Origin: Novosphingobium sp. 9
GTDB lineage: Bacteria > Pseudomonadota > Alphaproteobacteria > Sphingomonadales > Sphingomonadaceae
DNA length: 64,000 nucleotides
Assembly: GCF_025340265.1 (NCBI RefSeq)
Contig: NZ_CP022707.1
Location: forward strand, 434,001 to 498,000
Direction: 5' to 3'
Below the pieces are notes generated by a model. It was not told the DNA's origin and did not search any database. It was given only the letters and a program-made list of their open reading frames with translations. Positions 11,123-28,405 of this stretch are shown here, one piece after another. The translations under genes and the position numbers were made by a program. Numbering within the stretch: the first letter of the stretch is position 1; every line of letters begins with the position of its first letter.

Positions 11123-13847
11123 TCAATCGATCTCCAAGGTCTCGCCGAAGGCTGCCTGCCAGGCCGCAGCGACCTGCCGGCGGGCCTGCCGCAGCGCGGC
11201 CGTCAGTTCTTCCCAGCCGCCATAGCCGCAGCTTCGCACAAGGGCCAGCCGCGCCGCCTCGGGCGGGTCGAGCGAATCGGGTGCCAGCAGCCTTGCCGCG
11301 ACAAGAAACCGCGCGAGCACGCCGTAAGCCTGCACCAGATCGGCAGGCAGCTGCCCCGCCTTCACCAGAGCCGCGATCGCCATGCCCATGCGCGGGTCCA
11401 GGCCTTTCCCGCTCGCCAGCTGGGCGTGGTGGACAAGGAACTCCAGATCGACCAGACCGCCGCGCGCCAGTTTCACGTCGAGAGCCCCCTTGCCCGGCTT
11501 GTGCTGCGCCATCCGCGCGCGCATCTCGATCACATCGGTGCGCAGTTTCGCCGGGTCGCGCGGACTGGTGAGCACCTCCTGCACGGCGGCATCGAGCGCG
11601 GCGCGCCCCTCCGGCGAACCGTAGAGCGGGCGCGCCCGGCACAGCGCCATGTGCTCCCAGGTCCACGCCTGTTCGGCCTGATAGCGCACGAAACTGTCGA
11701 GACTGGCGGCAGGCGGCCCCTGCTCTCCCGAGGGGCGCAGACGCGTGTCGACCTCATAGAGTGCGCCCTCCGCCGTCGGCACCGAAAGCGCCGCAATCGC
11801 GCGCTGCGCCAACCGGTTGAAGTAGAGCGTGGCCCCCAGCGGACGCTCGCCCTGCGATTCGCGCGTATGCTCGCCGGTAAACAGGAACACCACGTCGAGA
11901 TCGGAAGCATGGGTCAGGATACCCCCCCAGCCGCCCGAGGCCGAGCAGGATGAGCTCTCCCCCCGGCACGGCGCCGTGGCGCGCTTCGAACTCGGCGCGG
12001 GCGGCGTCGATCAGCACGCGGATCGCCGCCTCGGCAATGCGCGAGAGCGCCGCACCGACATCGAGCGGATCGTTGCGCCCTTCGATAAGCTGGACGCCGA
12101 GCACGAAGCGAAGCTCGCCCACCCGGCGACGGACGCGACCGAGCACCGCCTCGTAATCGTCCCCCGCCTCGCGCCGCGCAAAGTCGGCGACCAGTTGATC
12201 GACCTCACCGGGCAGCGCGAAGGCGCTGGCATCGATCAGCGGATCGAGCAGGTCGGCACGGCGCGCGAGGGCATCGGCCAGCGGCGGCGCGATCGAGAGG
12301 ATGTGCGCCAGCATATCGAGCAAGGCCGGGCGCGCTTCAAGCAGCCGGAACAGGTTGATCGCACTGGGCAGGTTGTCGAGCAGCCGCTCCCAGCGGGCGA
12401 GTGCGCGCTCGGGCTCGGGCGCAGCGGCGAGTGCAGCGATCAGCGCCGGGCGGATCGCCGCGAAGGCGCCCCGCGCGGCATCGCTGCGCAGCGCGCGCAT
12501 CTTGCCCGATTCCCAGCTTTGCAGCCGCTTCGCCAGCGCATCGGCATCGCTGAAGCCGAGCGCGGTGCTCGCCTCGTCAAGGTCGCTCTGATCGGGCATC
12601 GCCACCGGTACGGAAACACCGGGCGCTACCGGCGCACTCTGGGCGATCAGGGCATCGTAGCGCGTACCGACTTCGGAGGTGATCGCCTCCACTTCCCCCA
12701 GCAGCGCGGCGCCGTCTGCCAGACCATCGAGCCGGGCCACGGCATCGAGCGCTTCCGGCTTTTCGGGCAGCGCATGGGTCTGCTGATCATGGACCATCTG
12801 CAACCGGTGCTCGATCACCCGCAGCCGGTCGTAACTCTCGCCCAGAAGCTGCGCCTCGCGGACCGGGAGCAGCCCCGCATCGGCCAGCGCATCCAGAGTC
12901 TCGCGCGTACCACGCAGGCGCAGCGCCGGGTTGCGACCGCCATGGATCAGCTGATGAACTTGCGCGTAGAACTCGATCTCGCGGATGCCGCCGCGCCCTT
13001 TCTTGAGGTTGAAGCCGGGGCCGACCCGCTCCGGCCCGCGCGCACTGGCGCGGATCTGGCGGGTCAACCGCCCGATCTCGGCAATCGCGCCGAAATCGAG
13101 GCTGCGACGCCACACGAAAGGCCGGATCGCCGTCAGGAACGCCTCGCCCGCAGGCACGTCTCCGGCGCAGGCCCGCGCCCGGATGAACGCGGCACGCTCC
13201 CATGCCAGCGCCGAGCTTTCGTAATGGCTGAGCGCGCCTGCGACCGGGATCGCCAAGGGGCTGACTTCGGACGCCGGGCGCAAGCGCAGGTCGACGCGGA
13301 AGACATAGCCCTCCTCGGTCACGCGCGAGAGCGTCTCGACCACGCTGCGCGCCACGCGCTGCGCCGCCTCACCCGGATCGTCACGCTCGCGACGGGGCAG
13401 CAGCGCGGGATCGTAAAGCAGGATCGGGTCGATATCGGAGCTGAAGTTCAGCTCGCGCGCCCCATGCTTGCCCAGCGCCAGCGCGAGGAAACCCGCAGGC
13501 TCGCTATCGGGCGCGCGACGGCGGATGGCATCGGCGATGGCCATGTCGAGCGAACGGTCGGCCATGTCGGACAGCGCGCCTGTCACCTCCAGCAGCGGCA
13601 AGGCTCCGGCCAGATCGCCGATGGCCAGCGCCAGCGACAGCGCCCGCCGCTCCCGCCTCAGGGCAACGCCGACATCGGAGGCGCCTTCGCCTGCCGCACG
13701 GGCCAGCGCCAGCGCACCGTTCCAGTCTCCCTGCGCGAGCAATCCGGCCAGCGCGGGCAGGCGCTCCAGCCCGGTGGCAAGGTAGGGGGCATGGGCCTTC
13801 GCCCGCGCAATGGCTCCGGCCCAGTCGGCAGTATCAGCGGCAGTCAT
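11123..13847 (-). CDS. glnE: Bifunctional glutamine synthetase adenylyltransferase/deadenylase (frameshifted as read)
   Basis: The repaired protein has about 908 residues. GlnE adds AMP to and removes it from glutamine synthetase in response to nitrogen supply. It has two nucleotidyltransferase domains: the first is clear at GKHGARELNFSSDIDPILLYD, with KKGRGGIREIEFYAQ next; the second would start at LGLGRLGG..THASDLDVVFLF. The frame breaks inside that second motif, where seven C residues (11922-11928, plus strand) stand in place of a longer run; two extra G on the coding strand give RLGGGILTHASDLD. Both halves are otherwise intact and conserved, so this is almost surely a homopolymer error. 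The start at 13847 gives MTAADTADW; a long upstream in-frame extension is non-coding. Confidence 0.9.
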
Positions 13848-14004
13848 GACCGCAGTCCTGCCCGCTTCGCGCCGGTTTGGAAACGGGCTTGCGCAAACAC
13901 CTCCATTTCCTCCGCGAACGGGCCGGAATTTTTCGCGCGATAGCTTACGCTGATCCTTGATCAGGCGTAGCTTTTCGCTGTTCCCCGAACGCCCGGAGTC
14001 GATC

Positions 14005-14886
14005 ATGTCCGCATACCGCGTCGTCATGCCCCTTGCCCTGCTTGCAGCATCCGTCACCTTTGCGACGCCGCCAACAGCGCAAGTGCTCTGGCAGCACGGC
14101 AGCGATGCGCTGCTGACCACCCGCTGCCCGCCGGGCGGCGATATCGACGAGACCTGCAAGGCCATCGCGCTGCGCCATGCAGGGCAGGAAACGCTGATCG
14201 GCGCGGGTTATATGACCACCCGCGTGCTCTGGAGCCGGCCTCCCGGCGGGGCGGGACCGGATGTCATCGTGCTGGGTGACGACGGCGGCTCCGGAGGAGA
14301 TGGCGATCTGCTGGCCGTGACCTTCTCCGATAGCGCCGCGCCTGTCGTGAAGCGCCTGCGCGGCGAGCGCATCGATGCCGCGAAAGTCACGCCATCGCCT
14401 GACGGCCCCCGCATCTCGCTGGCCTTCGACATCGAATACTTCAACGGCGCACCCCATGCAGGCGCCGCGCTCGTCCCGCTGCCGCTGGTGTGGCGGGATG
14501 GCGACTTCGCGCTCGATCCCAAAGCGCTGACCACCCGCCCCATGCGCTCCGCCGACCTCGACCGGCGCGAACGGGCCGTCGCCCGCGAACTCACCCAGTG
14601 GACGCACGGCACGCCGGAAACGCAAAGCCTCTATCCCGGCCCCTCCTTCTCCGGCACGCCGGTTACCGTGCAAACGCTCGTCGAACTGATGCTGTCCGGC
14701 CACGCCAAGGAAGCCGATGCCCTGCTCCGCCGCGCGTGGCCGCAGCGAGCGGGACGTCAGGCGTTCTGGGCGGACCTGTGCCGCGCGGTCGTGACGCAGC
14801 CCTACTGGCAGCGCTTCGCTCTGGCCCGGCTTCCCGGTGCGGACCTGATCGCGGCCTCCGCCAGAGCCGCCACGCCTTCTACCTGA
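14005..14886 (+). CDS. Secreted protein of unknown function
   Basis: Encodes 293 residues. The N-terminus MSAYRVVMPLALLAASVTFATPPTAQ is a signal peptide. I do not recognise the mature domain. Visible features are two cysteines close together (RCPPGGDIDETCK) that could form a disulfide, an acidic glycine-rich loop GDDGGSGGDGD, and a C-terminal half with an alanine- and arginine-rich helical stretch (MLSGHAKEADALLRRAWPQRAGRQAFWADLC). It has no obvious partner; glnE is divergent, and the M28 peptidase starts 190 bases later. Codon use looks normal for the window, so it is probably a real gene. Confidence 0.65.
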   Translation: MSAYRVVMPLALLAASVTFATPPTAQVLWQHGSDALLTTRCPPGGDIDETCKAIALRHAGQETLIGAGYMTTRVLWSRPPGGAGPDVIVLGDDGGSGGDGDLLAVTFSDSAAPVVKRLRGERIDAAKVTPSPDGPRISLAFDIEYFNGAPHAGAALVPLPLVWRDGDFALDPKALTTRPMRSADLDRRERAVARELTQWTHGTPETQSLYPGPSFSGTPVTVQTLVELMLSGHAKEADALLRRAWPQRAGRQAFWADLCRAVVTQPYWQRFALARLPGADLIAASARAATPST

Positions 14887-16846: not shown

Positions 16847-17887
16847 ATGCCACAAGTGAGACGATCTGACGTGACGAATGATACCGTGAACTGGGTGCTG
16901 CCGCCCGAATGGCACCCGCAGGACTGGCTGTGGATCGGCTTCCCGCACGATCCGGTCGAATGGCCGGGCTTCCTGGAGGACGCGCAGGTGCAGATGGCGG
17001 CCTTCGCCAGCGCCGTAGCCGAAAGCGGCCAGCCGGTGCGATTGGTCGTGCGCGACGAAGCCAACCGGGCGCGCGCCGCCTCGCTGGTCTCCTCGAAGGT
17101 CTCGCTCGAAGTGCGCAGCTATGGCGATGTCTGGCTGCGCGATACCGGGCCGCTGGTGGTCACCGACACGCTCGGCAACCGTAAGGCCAAGCGTTTCGGC
17201 TTCAACGGCTGGGGCGGCAAGTACCTGATGGACGGCGATCAGGAGATCGGCGCTGAACTGGCGCGCGATGCCGGGCTCGACGTCGAAGTGGCGGACTGGA
17301 TTCTCGAAGGCGGCGCGATCGACGGCGATGGCACGGGCCTTGTCGCCGTGACCGAACAGGTCTTCCTCAACCCCAACCGCAACCCGCATCTGACCCGCAA
17401 CGATCTGGAGACCCGCCTCCAGCGCGATCTCGGCTACGACCGGGTGCTGTGGCTGGGCGACGGCCTGATCAACGACCATACCGACGGGCATGTCGACAAC
17501 CTCGCCCGGTTCGTGGCGCCCAACACGCTCGCCCTGCCGCGCGCGACCGGCACCGACGATCCCAACGCGGCGATCTATGCCGATGCCAAGGCCCGCGCCG
17601 AGGCCTATGGCGTGACGGTGCGCGAAGTCCTTTCCCCCGGTCGGGTCGAGAGTGCCAGTGAGAATGGGGGCCGGATCGAGCCTGCCAGCTACATGAACTT
17701 CGCGATCACCTCGAAGCTGGTGGTGGTGCCGGTCTATGGCACGAAGCACGATGCCGATGGCGTCGCCGCGATCGCAGAGCTGTTCCCCGATCGCGAGACG
17801 GTGGGCGTGCTGGCCGACGCGGTGCTGGCGGGCGGCGGCTCGTTCCACTGCTCCAGCCAGCAGATGCCCTCGCCAATCGAAGGCTGA
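16847..17887 (+). CDS. aguA: Agmatine deiminase family protein
   Basis: About 346 residues, a guanidine-group-modifying enzyme with the five-bladed propeller fold. The catalytic set is visible: RSYGDVWLRDTGPL (Asp), LEGGAIDGDG (Glu), NDHTDGHVDNLARF (His and Asp) and the nucleophile in FHCSSQQMPSP near the C-terminus. Agmatine deiminase makes N-carbamoylputrescine and ammonia from agmatine. No carbamoylputrescine amidase gene lies beside it, so agmatine as substrate is likely but not certain. The ATG at 16847 starts two bases after the M28 stop; a GTG at 16871 is an alternative. Confidence 0.88.
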   Translation: MPQVRRSDVTNDTVNWVLPPEWHPQDWLWIGFPHDPVEWPGFLEDAQVQMAAFASAVAESGQPVRLVVRDEANRARAASLVSSKVSLEVRSYGDVWLRDTGPLVVTDTLGNRKAKRFGFNGWGGKYLMDGDQEIGAELARDAGLDVEVADWILEGGAIDGDGTGLVAVTEQVFLNPNRNPHLTRNDLETRLQRDLGYDRVLWLGDGLINDHTDGHVDNLARFVAPNTLALPRATGTDDPNAAIYADAKARAEAYGVTVREVLSPGRVESASENGGRIEPASYMNFAITSKLVVVPVYGTKHDADGVAAIAELFPDRETVGVLADAVLAGGGSFHCSSQQMPSPIEG

Positions 17888-18009
17888 GGCATCAGGCGGG
17901 AGAGTCGCAAAAACGGCTCTCCCGTAATATGCGCCCTGCCGTTCCAGCGGCGCGGCGCAGTAGCCGATCTTAGCATTTTGGTAAGGTCTGGCAGCGCAGA
18001 ACGGCGGGC

Positions 18010-18150
18010 ATGGCAAAAGTCATCGCCCTAAGCCGCACATTGGTGCGCCCGCAACCGCTCTCGGCACCCGCCGATGCGCTGCGCTGTGCGCTGGTGGTGG
18101 CCTTCGCTGCGGTAGTGATCCTCGCCCGCGCGCCGCTGCCGTTTCTCTAA
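18010..18150 (+). CDS. Possible small membrane protein, 46 residues
   Basis: A short frame reads MAKVIALSRTLVRPQPLS then one hydrophobic stretch (CALVVAFAAVVILARAPLP). That is a basic head plus a single membrane helix. The ribosome-binding site is weak. Its stop overlaps the stop of the convergent HIT gene by four bases. I do not recognise it and give it low weight. Confidence 0.3.
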   Translation: MAKVIALSRTLVRPQPLSAPADALRCALVVAFAAVVILARAPLPFL

Positions 18151-18572
18151 AAACGCAGCTTCAGCCACGCGACCAGCGCGGCGAGATCCTCACCCTCCAG
18201 CGCAATCGCCTGCCCCAGATCGGGGACTTTCGGCCAGCCGGCATCGACGAACGCGCGTCCCTGCCATTCGCGCGCGCCTTCGTAGCGCGGGATGACGTGG
18301 AAGTGGACATGCGGGTCCACCATCATCAGCATCAGGTAGTTGAGCTTCGCGTAGTCGACAGCCTCGCGCAGCGCGGCCTCGATCGCTGTCGTGACCGTCT
18401 TCAGTTCGGCGTGGGCTTCGAGCGGCAGATCACCGAAGGCCGTGACGTCCGACTTTGCCGCCAGCACCAGCGCGCCCAGCGTGGGCTGCGCAGGGCGGGC
18501 CAGCACCACCCAGTGATCGAACTCGGCCACCAGCGTGTGTGGATAGCCGAACTTTTCGAGCGTCGCGTTCAT
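18147..18572 (-). CDS. HIT-family nucleotide hydrolase/transferase
   Basis: Encodes 141 residues with the histidine triad near the C-terminal third: VDPHVHFHVIPRY fits H-x-H-x-H. HIT proteins hydrolyse nucleoside phosphoramidates, dinucleoside polyphosphates or nucleotide-linked headgroups through a histidine-AMP intermediate. The gene overlaps the start of the upstream CDP-alcohol phosphatidyltransferase by four bases on the same strand (the ATG of this gene overlaps its stop), so the two are translationally coupled. A role in clearing or recycling a CDP-linked headgroup would fit the context but is inference. Confidence 0.88.
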   Translation of the reverse strand: MNATLEKFGYPHTLVAEFDHWVVLARPAQPTLGALVLAAKSDVTAFGDLPLEAHAELKTVTTAIEAALREAVDYAKLNYLMLMMVDPHVHFHVIPRYEGAREWQGRAFVDAGWPKVPDLGQAIALEGEDLAALVAWLKLRF

Positions 18573-19744
18573 GCCGCCTTCTCCATCTTCTCGCCTTCAT
18601 CGGACAGCCACGAGACGATCCTGCCGCCCCGCGCGCGCAAGGCCCAGGCCTGCACCAGCCGCACCGCGTGGATCGCGCAGGACAGCACCGTCCACCACGC
18701 CACCACGATCAGGCCGATGTCGGGGCGCTGGAGCGCGGTCGCGACGAACAGGATCACCATGTTCGGATTGCGCCGCGCGGTGATAAGCCGGAACCGGCTG
18801 TCGAAACGGCGCCAGACATGGATATGCATCCCGCCGTTCTGGCGCATGAACACGCCCTCGATCGCGCGCTGGACCCAATAGCCCAGCTGGATCGCGGCCT
18901 GCACCCACCAGAACGTCGCACTGTCGAAGGACAGGTTCCACGCGGCAAGGCCCGTCGCCCAGAACCACCACCAGAACGGCGGATGGACCAGATCCATGCC
19001 ATGGTCGAACACATTGCCCCAGGCCGAGGACGTGATCGTGCAGCGCGCCAGCTTGCCGTCCACGGTATCGAGCACCATGAACACCAGGCCGGTCGCCATG
19101 CCCCACCAGTAGTGCCCCTGCGCGAACAGCACCGTGGCGATCACGCAGAACACCGCGCCGACGCTCGTCACCATGTTCGGCGTGATCCGCAGCGCGGCAC
19201 AGATCCGGGTCAGCACCAGCGCCCATTCCGGCCAGAGGTACTTGGTGAGAATATCGGTGACGCCCTTGTAGGCGCCGAAATAGCTCGCCCGCTCGATCTG
19301 GCGCACGGTATCGGCCCGCAGCGGCAGGACGAACGGCGTCTCGCGCTTGCGCAACGACTTGTTCTCGATGGTCGGGCCATCCTCGTAGCGCAGCAGGGTG
19401 AAGGCGCCCTCGCCATCGAGCGCCAGCGGCCCCATCGGCGAGGCGCTTTCCATCGCCTTGGCGATTCGCTGCGCCTCGTCGGGCGTCCGGGCATGGGCGA
19501 GCACCGGCACGCCGCCCAGACACAGCACCATGCCGGGGTTCGCCAGCACATGCCGCCACCACGCCGGATCGAAGGCATAGGCCGCGTTCGAGAGCACGGT
19601 GGCGCCCGGCCCCGCCTCGCGACCGACCGCGATGCCGCTCGCCCGTGCGATTCGCGCATTGCGCTCCTCGATCGTCATGCCCCAGAGCCGGACGGTGTTG
19701 TCGCCTACCGTCCATGCCGCGATTTCGCCAAATTCCTGCGTCAT
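18569..19744 (-). CDS. CDP-alcohol phosphatidyltransferase family protein with N-terminal extra domain
   Basis: Encodes 391 residues. The C-terminal half carries the full signature D-x2-D-G-x2-A-R-x8-G-x3-D-x3-D as LDTVDGKLARC...GNVFDHGMD (about residues 215-240), inside a set of about six membrane helices. This family moves a phospho-alcohol from a CDP-linked donor onto an acceptor alcohol in the inner membrane. The first ~140 residues are soluble. Their placement recalls the nucleotidyltransferase half of bifunctional IPCT-DIPP synthases, but the usual nucleotide-binding LAGGxGxR loop is missing. The gene is divergent from the lipid kinase (234-base gap) and coupled to the HIT gene. Substrates are unknown; ceramide- or glycerolipid-headgroup synthesis is inferred from neighbours. 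Confidence 0.85.
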   Translation of the reverse strand: MTQEFGEIAAWTVGDNTVRLWGMTIEERNARIARASGIAVGREAGPGATVLSNAAYAFDPAWWRHVLANPGMVLCLGGVPVLAHARTPDEAQRIAKAMESASPMGPLALDGEGAFTLLRYEDGPTIENKSLRKRETPFVLPLRADTVRQIERASYFGAYKGVTDILTKYLWPEWALVLTRICAALRITPNMVTSVGAVFCVIATVLFAQGHYWWGMATGLVFMVLDTVDGKLARCTITSSAWGNVFDHGMDLVHPPFWWWFWATGLAAWNLSFDSATFWWVQAAIQLGYWVQRAIEGVFMRQNGGMHIHVWRRFDSRFRLITARRNPNMVILFVATALQRPDIGLIVVAWWTVLSCAIHAVRLVQAWALRARGGRIVSWLSDEGEKMEKAA

Positions 19745-19978
19745 TCCCCGGCCCTAATCCACGGACTGGCGCGAGGCAATCGCGAGCGCCCGACGGTGAA
19801 GAGGTGCAAATTATGCAATCACGGTCGCGCCGGGAGTCACGGAAAAAAATTGCAACCAACGATTTCCGCCACTTGGCCTACGATCCCCTCCGCATTTCCC
19901 CTTGTCCAAAAGCCACAAGGCTGTAACAAATGTTCGCTACGGGCAAATTTGGGTGGTTTTCGGCGAAAAGCGTACTAC

Positions 19979-21031
19979 ATGGTACGCATGCACGGGAACA
20001 TTTACGAGTTCGAAGCGCTGCCGTCCTTCGGTGAGCCGCTGCTGCGCAGCCTGCCCGGAACCGTCCGGCGGCCTCTGCGCGGACGTGCCGTGCCGCTCGT
20101 CGGCATCATCCGCAATCCCCGCAGTCACCGCAACAAGGGCCTCGCGCCCGAGATGGAAGACTGCTCGAACATCCTCACCGAGACTCCGCGTGAGCGTGAG
20201 GACCTGCGTGACAGCCTCACCCGCTTCGCGCGTCGCGGTATCGACTATCTGGTGGTCGATGGCGGCGACGGCACCGTTCGCGACGTGCTGACCTGCGGCG
20301 CCAGCGTCTATGGCGACGACTGGCCGACGCTGATCATCCTGCCCAAGGGCAAGACCAACGCACTGGCGGTCGACCTCGGCCTGCCCACGCACTGGTCGCT
20401 GGCCGAAGCCATGGCTGCCGCACACAAGGGCAACACGCTTACCCGTCGCCCGCTGCGCATGACCACGCGTGACGGTCGTCCAGCCTGCGTGCAGGGCTTC
20501 TTCATGGGCACCGGCGCGATCGCCGTGGGCACCGAAGCCGGACAGGAAGCGCATCGTCGCGGTATGTTCAACAGCTTTGCGGTGGGCCTGACGATCCTGT
20601 GGGGCATCGTCCAGGCACTGTTCGGCGGTGCCGGCAACCCCTGGCGTTCCAGCGTGCGCACCCGCATGGTCGATCGCGACACCGGTCGCGACGTGTCCTA
20701 TCGCGGCAATGGCCGCTGGACCGATCGCTACATGACGGTTGCCACCACCTTCGAGCGCTTCCCGATGAAGGTGCGCCCGTTCGGTCCGAACCCGGCACCC
20801 GGCCTGAAGATGGCGGTGATGGATTCGCCGCGCCGCTGGATCATGGCGCTGCTGCCGCTGCTGCTGACCGGCTTCTTTGCCAAGGCTTTCGAGAAGGCTG
20901 GCCTGCACCGTTTCAGCACGCGCGGCATGGACATGGATCTTGGCGGCAGCTTCATCCTCGATGGCGAGGCGTTCCCCGCCGGGCGCTATGCGCTGGAGGA
21001 AGGCCCGCAGCTGACGTTCGTCGTGCCCTGA
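19979..21031 (+). CDS. Diacylglycerol-kinase-type lipid kinase, possible ceramide kinase
   Basis: Encodes 350 residues. The catalytic domain of the DAGK/sphingosine-kinase superfamily is clear: the first loop is IRNPRSHRNKG, a variant of NPxSG, and the nucleotide loop is VDGGDGTVRDVL. A downstream ILPKGKTNALAVDLGLP is the family's 'PxGTxNxxA' block with lysine in place of glycine. A hydrophobic stretch near residues 278-292 (WIMALLPLLLTGFFAK) may dip into the membrane. The enzyme should phosphorylate a membrane lipid alcohol. In Caulobacter a related bacterial ceramide kinase (CerK) works in anionic sphingolipid synthesis; equivalence here is a hypothesis. An ATG at 19988 is an alternative start. 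The next two genes follow on the same strand. Confidence 0.83.
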   Translation: MVRMHGNIYEFEALPSFGEPLLRSLPGTVRRPLRGRAVPLVGIIRNPRSHRNKGLAPEMEDCSNILTETPREREDLRDSLTRFARRGIDYLVVDGGDGTVRDVLTCGASVYGDDWPTLIILPKGKTNALAVDLGLPTHWSLAEAMAAAHKGNTLTRRPLRMTTRDGRPACVQGFFMGTGAIAVGTEAGQEAHRRGMFNSFAVGLTILWGIVQALFGGAGNPWRSSVRTRMVDRDTGRDVSYRGNGRWTDRYMTVATTFERFPMKVRPFGPNPAPGLKMAVMDSPRRWIMALLPLLLTGFFAKAFEKAGLHRFSTRGMDMDLGGSFILDGEAFPAGRYALEEGPQLTFVVP

Positions 21032-21078
21032 GCACGCGGGCGGCGCACGGACAACGGTTCTTACGGGGCATTACCATC

Positions 21079-22002
21079 ATGAGCGAGGATCTCGTCGAGC
21101 GCATCGCGATCGGCCTGAACCGGTCGATCCTGCCTGACGTGCGCGCCTTCGCGGGCCGACTGGCAGGCCAGACTGCAACCGAAGGCCCGGCCGCAGGCGT
21201 GCTGTTCTACGGCTCGAACCTGCGCACCGGCTCGCTCGAAGGTGTGCTCGATTTCTACGTGCTCACCGATGGGCCGGTGGAAAGCGGCATCTGGCCGCGT
21301 GTCAGCTATCACGAATGGAACATCGGCGCGCAGACCCTGCGCGCCAAGGTCGCGACGATGACGCTGGCCACTTTCCGCGAGGCGGCGGGCGGCAACCTGC
21401 TCGACACCACGATCTGGGCGCGCTTCGTCCAGCCTTCGGGCCTTGCCTGGGCACGCAGCGAGCGCGACGGCGCCGAGATCGCCCAGGCCGTGGCCGGCGC
21501 GGCCCGCACTGCCGGTCGTCTGGCGGTGGCCCTCGGCCCCGAAGTCGGCACGCCCGAGGATTACTGGCGCGCGCTGTTCCGCGCGACCTATGCCGCGGAA
21601 TTCCGCGTCGAGAAGCCGGGGCGCGAGGATTCGATCCTCTCGGTCAACCGCGAGCATTTCGACGGCCTGCTGCGCGTCGCCCTGCTCGATGCCGGGATCG
21701 GTGTCGCCGATGCCGGTGAGGATGGCCATCACGATGCCCTGATGCGCCCGCTGATGGGCACGCCCGAGCGCGTCGCCACGCTGCGCTGGTGGCGCAAGCG
21801 CCGCCGTATCGGCAAGGGCTACAACGCCGTCCGGCTGGTCCGCGCCTCGACCACGTTCGAGGGCGCCGCGCGCTATGCCGCCTGGAAAATCGAGCGCCAT
21901 ACCGGCGTGCCGATCCACATCACCCCATGGCGCGAAAAGCATCCCGTCCTTGCAGCCCCCGGTGTGCTCTGGCAGGTGTGGCGCGCCCGGCATCGCGGGT
22001 GA
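21079..22002 (+). CDS. Tam41/Mmp37-like nucleotidyltransferase-fold protein, function unproven
   Basis: Encodes 307 residues. It starts at the ATG 47 bases after the kinase stop. The block LFYGSNLRTGSLEGVLDFYVL looks like a polymerase-beta-type nucleotide pocket with one acidic residue after a G-S pair (the first part is LFYGSNLRTG, the second VLDFYVLTD). A second block, LRAKVATMTLATF...DTTIWARFVQPSGLAW, resembles the 'KYG...W...YLAGRLQKP' region of mitochondrial Tam41, which makes CDP-diacylglycerol from phosphatidate and CTP. I see this by eye only. If true, it would turn the phospholipid made by the upstream kinase into a CDP-lipid. Without that match it is an unknown cytoplasmic protein in a lipid operon. 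Confidence 0.6.
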   Translation: MSEDLVERIAIGLNRSILPDVRAFAGRLAGQTATEGPAAGVLFYGSNLRTGSLEGVLDFYVLTDGPVESGIWPRVSYHEWNIGAQTLRAKVATMTLATFREAAGGNLLDTTIWARFVQPSGLAWARSERDGAEIAQAVAGAARTAGRLAVALGPEVGTPEDYWRALFRATYAAEFRVEKPGREDSILSVNREHFDGLLRVALLDAGIGVADAGEDGHHDALMRPLMGTPERVATLRWWRKRRRIGKGYNAVRLVRASTTFEGAARYAAWKIERHTGVPIHITPWREKHPVLAAPGVLWQVWRARHRG

Positions 22003-22018
22003 CTTTCCCGTGCCCGAG

Positions 22019-22858
22019 ATGACCCCCGACCAGATGCCTTCCGAGATTGACACTGACGCCGAAACCGCAGCGGCATCGCAATCGCTTCCCGGCGCGCTGA
22101 TTCTGGCCGGGCAGCGCCCCGGCAAGCCCGACCCCGTGGCCGTGGCCGAAGGCATTTCCAGCAAGGCGCTGGCGCTGCTCGAAGGGCGCCCGATGCTCTC
22201 GCACGTCGTCACCGCGCTGCGCGAGGCGGGGATCGCGCGTATCGCCGTGGCCGCCAACGATCCCGGCGTACGCCTGATGGCCGAGCGCCTCGGCTGCGAA
22301 CTGCTCGCTGCCGAAGCCGGGCCGAGCGCCAGCGTGGCCTCCGCTTTCGCGACGATGGGCGCGCCCCTGCTTGTCACCACCGCCGATCACGCGCTGCTGC
22401 GCCCGGAATGGGTACTCGATTTTCTGGCCGACGCACCCGAAGATGCCGATGTCGCCGTGCTGCTGGCCCGCAAGGACGCGGTCGAGGAGGCCATGCCCGG
22501 CGCCAAGCGCACCTACCTCAAGTTCGCCGATGGCGACTGGTCGGGCTGCAACCTGTTCCTGCTGAACTCCGATGCCGCGCAGCACGCGATCGACACCTGG
22601 CAGCAGGTGGAAGCCGACCGCAAGCGCCCCTGGCGGATCGCCTTCCGGCTCGGGCTGGGCACGCTTTTCAGCTACAAGGCAGGTCGCCTGACGCTGGCGG
22701 CGATGCTGGAGCGACTGGGCCACCGCGTCGGCGTGGAAGCGCATCTGGTGGCTGCGCGCGATGGCCTTGCCGCCGTCGACGTCGACAAGCCTTCCGACCT
22801 CGTCGATGCCCGCGCGATCATGGCCGCCCGCGCGGCACGGGCCCGCAAGCGCCTGTAA
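22019..22858 (+). CDS. Nucleotidyltransferase family protein (NTP-transferase/MobA-like fold)
   Basis: Encodes 279 residues. After a short polar head comes GALILAGQRPGKPDP, then SSKALALLEGRPMLSHVV, the sugar-nucleotidyltransferase pattern LAGxRxG ... K-A-L-x-x-L-x-G-x-P-M-L-x-H. LLVTTADHALLRPE stands where the metal-binding aspartate motif is found in the family, and AVDVDKPSDLVDAR near the end is also typical. These enzymes activate a phospho-compound with CTP, GTP or UTP. The gene lies 16 bases after the Tam41-like gene. Making a CDP-activated headgroup for the CDP-alcohol phosphatidyltransferase is the simplest role, and a phosphoglycerate cytidylyltransferase (Caulobacter CpgD) is one known precedent. 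Confidence 0.8.
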   Translation: MTPDQMPSEIDTDAETAAASQSLPGALILAGQRPGKPDPVAVAEGISSKALALLEGRPMLSHVVTALREAGIARIAVAANDPGVRLMAERLGCELLAAEAGPSASVASAFATMGAPLLVTTADHALLRPEWVLDFLADAPEDADVAVLLARKDAVEEAMPGAKRTYLKFADGDWSGCNLFLLNSDAAQHAIDTWQQVEADRKRPWRIAFRLGLGTLFSYKAGRLTLAAMLERLGHRVGVEAHLVAARDGLAAVDVDKPSDLVDARAIMAARAARARKRL

Positions 22859-22884
22859 GGGAACGAGCCTTTCGATCAGACTGG

Positions 22885-22905
22885 CCGATCCGGTCAACCG
22901 ATCGG
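22885..22905. terminator. Hairpin between convergent genes, possible terminator
   Basis: CCGATC (22885-22890) pairs with GATCGG (22900-22905), and an inner GGT/ACC extends the stem with one bulge. It lies in the 62-base gap between the nucleotidyltransferase and the convergent DUF2141 gene. There is no T-tract on either side, so it may be only a weak or factor-assisted terminator. Confidence 0.3.
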
Positions 22906-22920
22906 ACTGGCTCATTCTCC

Positions 22921-23427
22921 TCACATATACTTCATCGTCACCCGGATCGACTTCACGCCCGGCCCTACCGGCACGCCGACCTTGGTGTAGCTCGGCTTGC
23001 CGAGGTTGAAGATGTTGATCGAGGGGTTGTTCGACATCGCCCCGCCATCGGTAGAGATATCGGTCTTGCCGTTGCCGTTCACGTCATGGCGCACGGCGAC
23101 GGCATAGGTCCCCGGCCCCGGCATCGGCAGGCAGAAGGTCATCGTCCCGGCATGCGCGGGCACCTCGATACGGTTGATCCACTTGCCGGTCTTGAGCCAG
23201 TCATCCGCCGTATCGCGATAGCTCTGAATGCGCAGCTTGCCTTCGGACGACTTCACACCGTCCACCGTCACCATCAGCGCGGGGCCGGACCCCGCATTGC
23301 AGCGGCTCATCTCGTTGCGGATTTCCTGATGGTCGCCCGCCGCCTCGGCGGTGGCGGCAAAGCCGCCCGCAAGGCCAAGCGTGGTCACGCCGCACACCAG
23401 CGCGGTCTTGTACATCGTTCGCGTCAT
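22921..23427 (-). CDS. DUF2141 periplasmic protein
   Basis: Encodes 168 residues. A signal peptide (TALVCGVTTLGLAGGFAATAEA) precedes a beta-sandwich domain of the DUF2141 family. The block GTYAVAVRHDVNGNGKTD is the family hallmark and also resembles a calcium-binding loop (D-x-N-x-N-G-K-x-D). Function is unknown for the family. The start at 23427 gives the signal peptide. Three cysteines are present, one in MSRCNAGSG just after the signal. It has no operon partner in the window; rpe is divergent 241 bases away, and that gap shows nothing I can name. Confidence 0.85.
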   Translation of the reverse strand: MTRTMYKTALVCGVTTLGLAGGFAATAEAAGDHQEIRNEMSRCNAGSGPALMVTVDGVKSSEGKLRIQSYRDTADDWLKTGKWINRIEVPAHAGTMTFCLPMPGPGTYAVAVRHDVNGNGKTDISTDGGAMSNNPSINIFNLGKPSYTKVGVPVGPGVKSIRVTMKYM

Positions 23428-23668
23428 CGCAGCCTTTTTGGTCTCGTGCTTTGACCGGGCGCCTGCCCGGCTCTCCATAGGGGCCGCCTTGTGCCCGAAA
23501 GGCGGTGAATAGGCACTGAATTTTGCCGCAAGGTGTCCGACAGGTGTCCCATAGCGGATCGCAAGGCCGCCCGCGACACTACATGGCGTGTGGAAAACGG
23601 CGCTTCGACCGCTTGCCGCCCCCAGATGTTGCGGCCTATCGTCGATCTTCGAGGAGACTGCCTTTTCC

Positions 23669-26814: not shown

Positions 26815-28405
26815 ATGACCGATACCGTCCAGATCCGCCGCGCCCTGCTTTCGGTTTCCGACAAGACCGGGCTTGCCACGCTCGGCAAGGCGCTCAGCGA
26901 TCGCGGGGTTGAGCTGGTCTCGACCGGCGGCACCGCCAAGGCGCTGCGCGATGCCGGACTGACGGTGAAGGACATCTCCGAAATCACCGACTTCCCGAGA
27001 TGATGGACGGTCGCGTCAAGACGCTGCACCCCAAGGTCCACGGCGGACTGCTGGCGGTGCGCGACAATCCCGAGCACGCCAAGGCCATGGCCGACCACGA
27101 GATCGGCGCGATCGATCTGGTGATCGTCAACCTCTACCCCTTCGAGGCGACCGTCGCCAAGGGGGCTGACCGCGACACCATTATCGAGAACATCGACATC
27201 GGCGGCCCCTCGATGGTGCGTTCGGCGGCGAAGAACCACGCCTATGTCACCATCGTCACCGACCCGGTTGATTACGAGGGCCTGCTGGTCGAACTGGAAG
27301 CCACGGACGGCGGCACCACGCTGGCCTTCCGCAAGCTGATGGCCGCGCGCGCCTTCGCGCAGACCGCCGCCTACGATTCGATGATCTCGCAGTGGTTCGC
27401 CTTCGCCGATCAGGGGCTTGAGTTCCCCGAGATGCTCAGCGTCAACGGTCGCCTCTCGACCACGCTGCGCTATGGCGAAAACCCGCACCAGAAGGCCGCG
27501 CTCTACACCCCCGTCGGCCCCTTCACCAAGGGTCTCGCACAAGGCGAGCAGATCCAGGGCAAGGAGCTGTCCTACAACAACTACAACGATGCCGACGCCG
27601 CCTTCGAGCTGGCTGCCGAGTTCCGCGGCCAGAAGCCTGCGGTGGTCATCGTCAAGCACGCCAACCCTGCGGCGTGGCGCAGGGCGACAGCCTGCTGGAC
27701 GCTTGGGAAGGCGCGCTGGCCTGTGACGACGTTTCGGCCTTCGGCGGCATCGTCGCGGTGAACCAGACGCTCGATGGCCCCACCGCCGAAGCGATCTGCA
27801 AGATCTTCACCGAAGTCGTCGTCGCGCCCGATGCCGACGAGGAAGCACGCAAATTCTTCGCCAAAAAGAAGAACCTGCGCCTACTGCTGACCGGCGAACT
27901 GCCCGATCCGCGTCGTGGCGGCCTGACCGTCAAGCCGATCACCGGCGGGCTGCTGGTGCAGGGCCGCGACAACGGCGCCATCGGCTTCGACGATCTCAAG
28001 GTCGTGACCAAGCGCGCGCCGACCGACGCCGAACTGCGCGACTGTCTGTTCGCCTGGACCGTGGCCCGCCATGTCAAGTCGAACGCGATCGTCTATGCCA
28101 AGGATGGCGTCACCGCCGGGATCGGCGCGGGCCAGATGAACCGCCGCGACAGCTCGCGCATCGCCGCGATGAAGGCCGCCGAAGCGGCCGAGAAGTTCGG
28201 CTGGGCACAGGCGCGCACGGTCGGCTCGGCGGTCGCCTCGGACGCGTTCTTCCCCTTCGCCGATGGCCTGCTGGCCGCTGCCGAAGCGGGCGCCACCGCC
28301 GTGATCCAGCCGGGCGGCTCGATCCGCGACGACGAAGTGATCGCCGCTGCCGACGAGGCGGGTCTGGCGATGGTCTTCACCGGCATGCGCCACTTCAAGC
28401 ACTGA
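26815..28405 (+). CDS. purH: Bifunctional AICAR transformylase/IMP cyclohydrolase (two frameshifts as read)
   Basis: Last two steps of IMP synthesis: formyl transfer to AICAR, then ring closure. Repaired length is 530 residues, normal for PurH. The cyclohydrolase (MGS) domain starts with [13 protein letters not shown] and [10 protein letters not shown]. The frame breaks at 26994-26996, where one C is missing from TTCCCCGAG ([14 protein letters not shown] is restored), and at 27665-27667, where one C is missing from AACCCCTGC ([13 protein letters not shown] is restored). The transformylase domain with [13 protein letters not shown] and the C-terminal GMRHFKH are intact. Both breaks sit in runs of four C in strongly conserved blocks, so an assembly error is much more likely than loss of the gene. 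Confidence 0.93.

Follow-up and report, generated by a model that had tools for sequence, protein, structure and literature searches.

A Probable Piece of the Ceramide-Phosphoglycerate Pathway in Novosphingobium sp. 9, with a HIT-Domain Protein That May Belong to It

Introduction

What would a lipid kinase, two nucleotidyltransferases and a cytidine diphosphate (CDP)-alcohol phosphotransferase build together in a sphingomonad, and what is a HIT-domain protein doing beside them? The question is raised by five genes in a stretch of 64,000 nucleotides from Novosphingobium sp. 9 (NCBI RefSeq assembly GCF_025340265.1, contig NZ_CP022707.1, positions 434,001 to 498,000 of the forward strand), called the window hereafter. 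A preliminary description had proposed that these genes perform the same type of chemistry as the cpg genes of Caulobacter crescentus; this proposal is supported, as each of the five pairs with a gene of the Caulobacter cluster, and we consider it probable that they form one piece of the pathway leading to ceramide-phosphoglycerate (CPG) and CPG2. The kind of gene set is already known: according to the passages of PMC11324152 cited here, 16 of 17 genes have orthologues in Sphingomonas wittichii, spread across six regions, and this species is predicted to make both CPG and CPG2. What is new is how the genes group across genomes.

Comparison with the Caulobacter Cluster

A profile scan of the named genomes with an alignment of the CDP-alcohol transferase, from which the best 80 of at least 561 confirmed relatives were kept, brought in a locus of Caulobacter vibrioides DSM 9893 (L110). 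The published cpgD start primer matches this locus exactly, whereas the 162 other loci lack such a match, which identifies the cluster. The window proteins were compared with 13 proteins from this single 21-kb locus, not with the whole Caulobacter genome, and reciprocal best matches of genome against genome were not established for every gene; the Caulobacter gene names were assigned by position, following the gene order given in the part of PMC11324152 used here. In this comparison, the five window genes appear as clear counterparts of genes of the ceramide-phosphoglycerate cluster (Table 1). In relatives, these genes are carried beside genes for serine palmitoyltransferase (SPT), ceramide synthase, CerR, AasR and LptF/LptG-like proteins. 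The stand-alone nucleotidyltransferase had been proposed as the enzyme supplying the CDP-headgroup: it does have a counterpart in the cluster, namely CC_1153, and its identification with CpgD, to which it has no significant match, was rejected.

The five genes lie where the preliminary description had placed them and carry the domains it had named, ORFs (open reading frames) and Pfam domain searches being in agreement. The HIT and CDP-alcohol transferase ORFs overlap by 4 bases on the minus strand; the genes for the kinase, the Tam41-like protein and the nucleotidyltransferase are consecutive on the plus strand, with spacings of 47 and 16 bases for the starts as chosen (the mechanical ORF of the kinase is longer than the version starting at the chosen ATG). 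This arrangement is not due to chance: the kinase and Tam41-like genes both occur in all 12 order neighbourhoods fetched around Tam41-like matches, and the same genes are also found next to ceramide-synthesis genes in other families. Compared with the CPG2 cluster of C. crescentus (cpgABCD, CC_1152-CC_1161), the window holds counterparts of cpgA, cpgB, cpgC, CC_1153 and CC_1157, and relatives of cpgD and spt are found elsewhere in this genome; here, however, the gene set is split into pieces on the chromosome, the HIT gene is joined to the cpgA counterpart as one unit that is divergent from the other three genes, as the ORF strands bear out, and a DUF2141 gene adjoins the set.

Table 1. Genes of the locus, with positions in the window, predicted identities and the matches on which these rest (identities and their E-values are against the 13 proteins of L110).
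Feature	Position	Strand	Length (amino acids)	Evidence
HIT-domain protein	18147-18572	-	141	ORF; Pfam HIT, E 4.7e-6; 55% identity to CC_1157
CDP-alcohol phosphotransferase, CpgA (CC_1159) counterpart	18569-19744	-	391	ORF; Pfam CDP-OH_P_transf, E 4.6e-9; 42% identity to CpgA, E 9e-84; motif; tree
Lipid kinase, CpgB (CC_1160) counterpart	19979-21031	+	350 (chosen ATG)	DAGK_cat, E 2.1e-11; 41% identity to CpgB across 315 positions, E 3e-71
Tam41-like nucleotidyltransferase, CpgC (CC_1161) counterpart	21079-22002	+	307 (chosen ATG)	49% identity to CpgC, E 6e-88
MobA/CofC-like nucleotidyltransferase, CC_1153 counterpart	22019-22858	+	279 (chosen ATG)	NTP_transf_3, E 6.5e-16; 51% identity to CC_1153, E 1.6e-73
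DUF2141 protein, signal-peptide-like N-terminus	22921-23427	-	168 (chosen ATG)	PF09912, E 2.3e-21 on the longer ORF

Gene Grouping Across the Order

The presence of each gene was counted in 196 genomes of the same order. The limits were chosen after viewing the gaps in the match lists (E <1e-40 for CpgA and CpgD, <1e-30 for HIT, <1e-15 for the CC_1153-like protein, and CpgC as listed at 0.001); dropped as weaker were the matches of 56 of 91 genomes for CpgA-type proteins, 3 of 31 for HIT, 158 of 188 for CpgD and 3 of 135 for CC_1153-like proteins. The gap is narrow for CpgD, where 2.3e-42 (a match cut by a contig end) is followed by 7.9e-39 and identity passes from about 46-54% to 36-38%.

Counted in this way, CpgA is present in 35 genomes, HIT in 28, CpgD in 30, and CpgC and the CC_1153-like protein in 132 each. 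All 28 HIT genomes have both CpgA and CpgD, a combination found in 29 genomes, of which only G473 is without HIT; CpgC and the CC_1153-like protein have 131 genomes in common. Phi reaches 0.96 for HIT and CpgD and 0.98 for CpgC and the CC_1153-like protein, against 0.28 for HIT and CpgC, and CpgC occurs without CpgA in 99 of the 196 genomes. A ceramide synthase relative is present in 190 genomes; HIT is, therefore, not simply a marker of ceramide makers. Linkage alone does not explain the co-occurrence either, since six genomes (G400, G409, G438, G450, G451 and G491) have HIT and CpgA on the same contig but separated by hundreds of kb. The kinship of the genomes was handled only by a within-genus shuffle in six hand-picked genera, where all 17 HIT genomes are CpgA+CpgD genomes, a result reached in 0 of 100,000 shuffles; both states occur in four of the genera (g1, g234, g235 and g248), with HIT coinciding exactly with CpgA+CpgD, and the exception G473 belongs to g241. 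At one locus (L184 of G402), CpgA, HIT and CpgD are found together without CpgB and CpgC.

This comparison suggests that the HIT protein (CC_1157 family) belongs to the ceramide-phosphoglycerate pathway. The pathway would then have two parts: a core, made of CpgC and the CC_1153-like protein with the kinase beside them, and a second-glycerate part nested in it, made of CpgA, CpgD and HIT. That these are two evolutionary units, the CpgA/CpgD/HIT unit being added on top of a CpgB/CpgC/CC_1153 core, and that HIT is an enzyme specific to the second-glycerate branch, with CDP-glycerate or a ceramide intermediate capped by a nucleotide as its substrate, is a reading that we put forward tentatively and hold to be a little short of probable.

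Two observations accompany these counts. In G353, G445 and G469, which belong to the order (loci L181, L182 and L183), CpgA lies beside a CpgD relative of just 35-38% identity, the value at these three loci being 35-36%; genes for CpgB, CpgC and the CC_1153-like protein are present in them, and HIT is absent from the genome. This set could possibly be a variant with a different activated headgroup. Closer to the window, 8 of 11 sampled genomes of the same genus (G407, G414, G433, G442, G447, G453, G011 and G475) keep a ceramide synthase relative and lack CpgC, the CC_1153-like protein, CpgD and HIT, as well as any clear match to CpgA; within this genus, a genome has either the full phosphosphingolipid set or none of it.

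The Individual Proteins

The motifs that would be expected of working enzymes are present in the kinase (GGDGT), the transferase (CDP-alcohol motif) and the HIT protein (H-V-H-F-H). In the kinase, GGDGT stands at residue 95 and the eukaryotic CxxxCxxC is absent; these are the traits given for the CpgB type in the passages of PMC10331486 cited here, in line with the match of the protein to the ceramide kinase CpgB.

For the Tam41-like protein, no Pfam family was found in the window sequence itself, and the Tam41_Mmp37 family matches 1 of 22 relatives (E 5.5e-5). In the PDB, the best match to a profile of these 22 relatives is 6ig2, a phosphatidate cytidylyltransferase of mitochondria (E 0.0023), and YGS...D is invariant in the alignment; the label is thus justified as a distant one. 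The protein shares with the mitochondrial CDP-diacylglycerol synthase Tam41 this profile match and the G-S...D nucleotidyltransferase pattern; it differs in having no Pfam match and in having clear relatives beside ceramide genes. Because of these neighbours, its lipid substrate is more likely to be ceramide phosphate.

The CDP-alcohol transferase has the full motif D226xxDGxxARx8Gx3Dx3D, preceded by an N-terminal extension of about 165 residues with no family match. Its catalytic domain and motif are those of phosphatidylinositol-phosphate synthases and of the bifunctional inositol-phosphate cytidylyltransferase/transferase, from which it is set apart by this extension and by a partner cytidylyltransferase that is a separate gene. 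In a tree of 112 rows (FastTree, midpoint root, with long-branch warnings), it falls in a 95-row clade with the CpgA of C. vibrioides, outside a paralogous clade. The latter, with 17 of the 112 rows, is a further group of CpgA-type transferases, split off by a deep branch, mostly encoded between an LptG-like gene and ceramide synthase (L078, L079, L082, L115, L120, L131, L132, L136, L142, L143, L148, L149, L151, L152 and others) and present alongside CpgA in 11 of the 80 named loci; these proteins are candidates for another headgroup transfer step. As for the CC_1153 counterpart, it scores 32 bits against the CofC model, under the cut-off of 105.

The HIT protein carries the motif P-H88-V-H90-F-H92. 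His90 and His92 are invariant in 21 of 21 sequences, and His88 is replaced in several of them, C. vibrioides included. In the HIT superfamily, the middle histidine is the nucleophile that carries the nucleotide, and the protein is predicted to be a nucleotidyl hydrolase or transferase. It is present at 74 of the 80 named loci, and at 54 of the 55 that have flanks of 8 kb or more on either side; the loci were chosen by CpgA and are not independent. In the open-licence literature (print elsewhere being possible), we found neither a link between HIT and CDP-alcohol phosphotransferases nor one between the HIT family and sphingolipids or ceramide in Alphaproteobacteria, and CC_1157 appears in this sense, among the matches listed, only in PMC11324152. 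A parallel from mycobacteria, a HIT gene beside a phosphatidylinositol-phosphate synthase gene, is not used as evidence: no discussion of it was found in the same literature, and the mycobacterial protein is not named among the PDB structures that the HIT protein of the window matches.

The Rest of the Pathway in This Genome

A CpgD relative is encoded at C1:411632-412375 (50% identity, E 3.8e-69), 21.6 kb to the left of the window and about 40 kb from the genes discussed here, and an SPT relative at C1:824507-825637 (E 2.1e-132), with an intact-looking open frame of 430 amino acids. A second CC_1153-like copy, weaker at 34% identity, lies at C1:922946-923719. Relatives of LptF2/LptG2, SPT, ceramide synthase and CC_1158 were looked for in window positions 8001-32000, and none was found there.

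With these genes, the following pathway can be proposed. The kinase would convert ceramide to ceramide-1-phosphate, activity on ceramide having been shown for Caulobacter CpgB. The Tam41-like protein would most likely join ceramide-1-phosphate and a nucleotide into CDP-ceramide; the activation of ceramide phosphate with a nucleotide by CC_1161 has already been suggested (PMC11324152, in the passages cited). CpgD, encoded elsewhere in the genome, would make CDP-glycerate, as shown for the Caulobacter enzyme (PMC12275187), and the CDP-alcohol transferase would, in line with Caulobacter genetics, transfer phosphoglycerate from CDP-glycerate onto CPG to give CPG2. The tie of the HIT protein to CpgD suggests that it acts on CDP-glycerate or on something derived from it, and its most likely role would be that of a house-keeping hydrolase that clears away excess CDP-glycerate or a lipid intermediate capped with a nucleotide; such a role would account both for the tie to CpgD and for the lack of a strong mutant phenotype.

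Competing Explanations

Several observations weigh against the reading proposed here. HIT is absent from 7 of the 35 CpgA genomes of the order. The link is looser in the class sample of 289 genomes than in the order, with a clear CpgA in 20 genomes, a clear HIT in 19 and both in 15. A clear HIT occurs without a clear CpgA in 4 of 19 class genomes, or in 8 of 23 when weaker matches are included (the class HIT list passes without a clean gap from 1.1e-36 to 1.2e-30, hence both counts); conversely, 5 of 20 CpgA genomes are without HIT (G047, G057, G185, G206 and G283), all but the first of which have extra CpgA-type genes. A Pfam search of ten ORFs from all four HIT-without-CpgA loci (G204, G251, G045 and G177) found no lipid gene, and these genomes are unexplained counter-examples to the link. 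As regards CC_1153, its mutant keeps CPG and loses CPG2 according to the passages of PMC11324152 cited here, which would place it in the second-glycerate branch, whereas in our order genomes the distribution of CC_1153-like proteins follows CpgC and not CpgA; either CC_1153 does not have the same role in all groups, or its function is taken over by a second copy, such as the weaker one in this genome. The CC_1158 phosphoesterase relative is missing from positions 8001-32000, no genome-wide search having been made for it; the same passages describe CC_1158 as not essential and as absent in S. wittichii.

The preliminary description had named the absence of spt and ceramide synthase genes as an argument against a sphingolipid pathway. 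The SPT relative is present; the ceramide synthase relative (C1:2888021-2889180) is split into two pieces that overlap and lie in different frames, which counts against our reading. In the window, a glnE-type protein (11123-14165, minus strand) and a purH-type protein (27000-28405, plus strand) are likewise each divided between two frames, an indication of base errors in the assembly, and the split of the ceramide synthase may well, for this reason, be an assembly error too.

Could the same enzymes make a glycerolipid instead? A diacylglycerol kinase would then make phosphatidate, the Tam41-like protein CDP-diacylglycerol and the transferase a phosphatidylinositol- or phosphatidylglycerol-type lipid; the DAGK_cat domain of the kinase, the phosphatidylinositol-phosphate synthases matched by the transferase profile and the distant match of the Tam41-like protein to CDP-diacylglycerol synthase all fit this scheme. 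However, the NCBIfam matches are all far below their cut-offs (for example, 53 bits for PIPSynth, where 170 are required, and 33 for the YegS-type kinase, where 119 are), the neighbours in the relatives are ceramide genes, and among characterised proteins CpgB and CpgC are the nearest relatives. As the closest relatives are these Caulobacter proteins, we regard a glycerolipid module as very improbable. Less remote, but still unlikely, is a pathway that keeps the ceramide logic and attaches another phospho-acid or phospho-alcohol: identities of 41-55% leave space for a change of substrate and the G353, G445 and G469 sets show that variants exist, but the CpgD relative of this genome, at 50%, is of the ordinary kind, and the full CpgA-CpgD-HIT set is present.

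For the HIT protein, another explanation is that it is only a passenger: a nucleotide hydrolase of general function, kept near these genes by chance. Mutants of CC_1157 lack high cofitness with the cluster, and the gene is treated as probably unrelated in the passages of PMC11324152 cited here, where our reading differs; this result argues against an essential HIT step and suits a clean-up role better, and it suits a passenger too, as do the four class genomes with HIT and no clear CpgA. Against a passenger stand the co-occurrence of HIT with CpgA+CpgD in every HIT genome of the order, which holds also when the genes are unlinked and within genera, and the near-constant presence of HIT at the CpgA loci with full flanks. 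We consider a passenger possible but less likely than a clean-up role in this pathway.

The DUF2141 Neighbour and Other Features

The predicted secreted DUF2141 protein, with its signal-peptide-like start, is a recurrent neighbour of sphingolipid clusters: its gene is found in 10 of the 12 order neighbourhoods and in 30 of the 80 named loci (within L064-L073 and L094-L157), each time between HIT and a CC_1158-like phosphoesterase. DUF2141 genes have also been noted next to a carotenoid gene of this order (PMC5989583, in the part cited); the family is, therefore, not restricted to sphingolipid loci. No tRNA was found in a search of the window, and a scan of positions 17800-23500 for promoters and terminators gave sites no more numerous than in shuffles.

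Significance

Anionic sphingolipids allow Caulobacter to live without lipopolysaccharide, according to the passages of PMC12275187 cited here. The grouping of the genes predicts that the HIT protein would act on a product of the CpgD/CpgA branch, that CC_1153 would serve the CpgC branch, contrary to the present genetic reading, and that genomes with the core only would make no more than the lipid with one glycerate or some other simple lipid based on ceramide phosphate.

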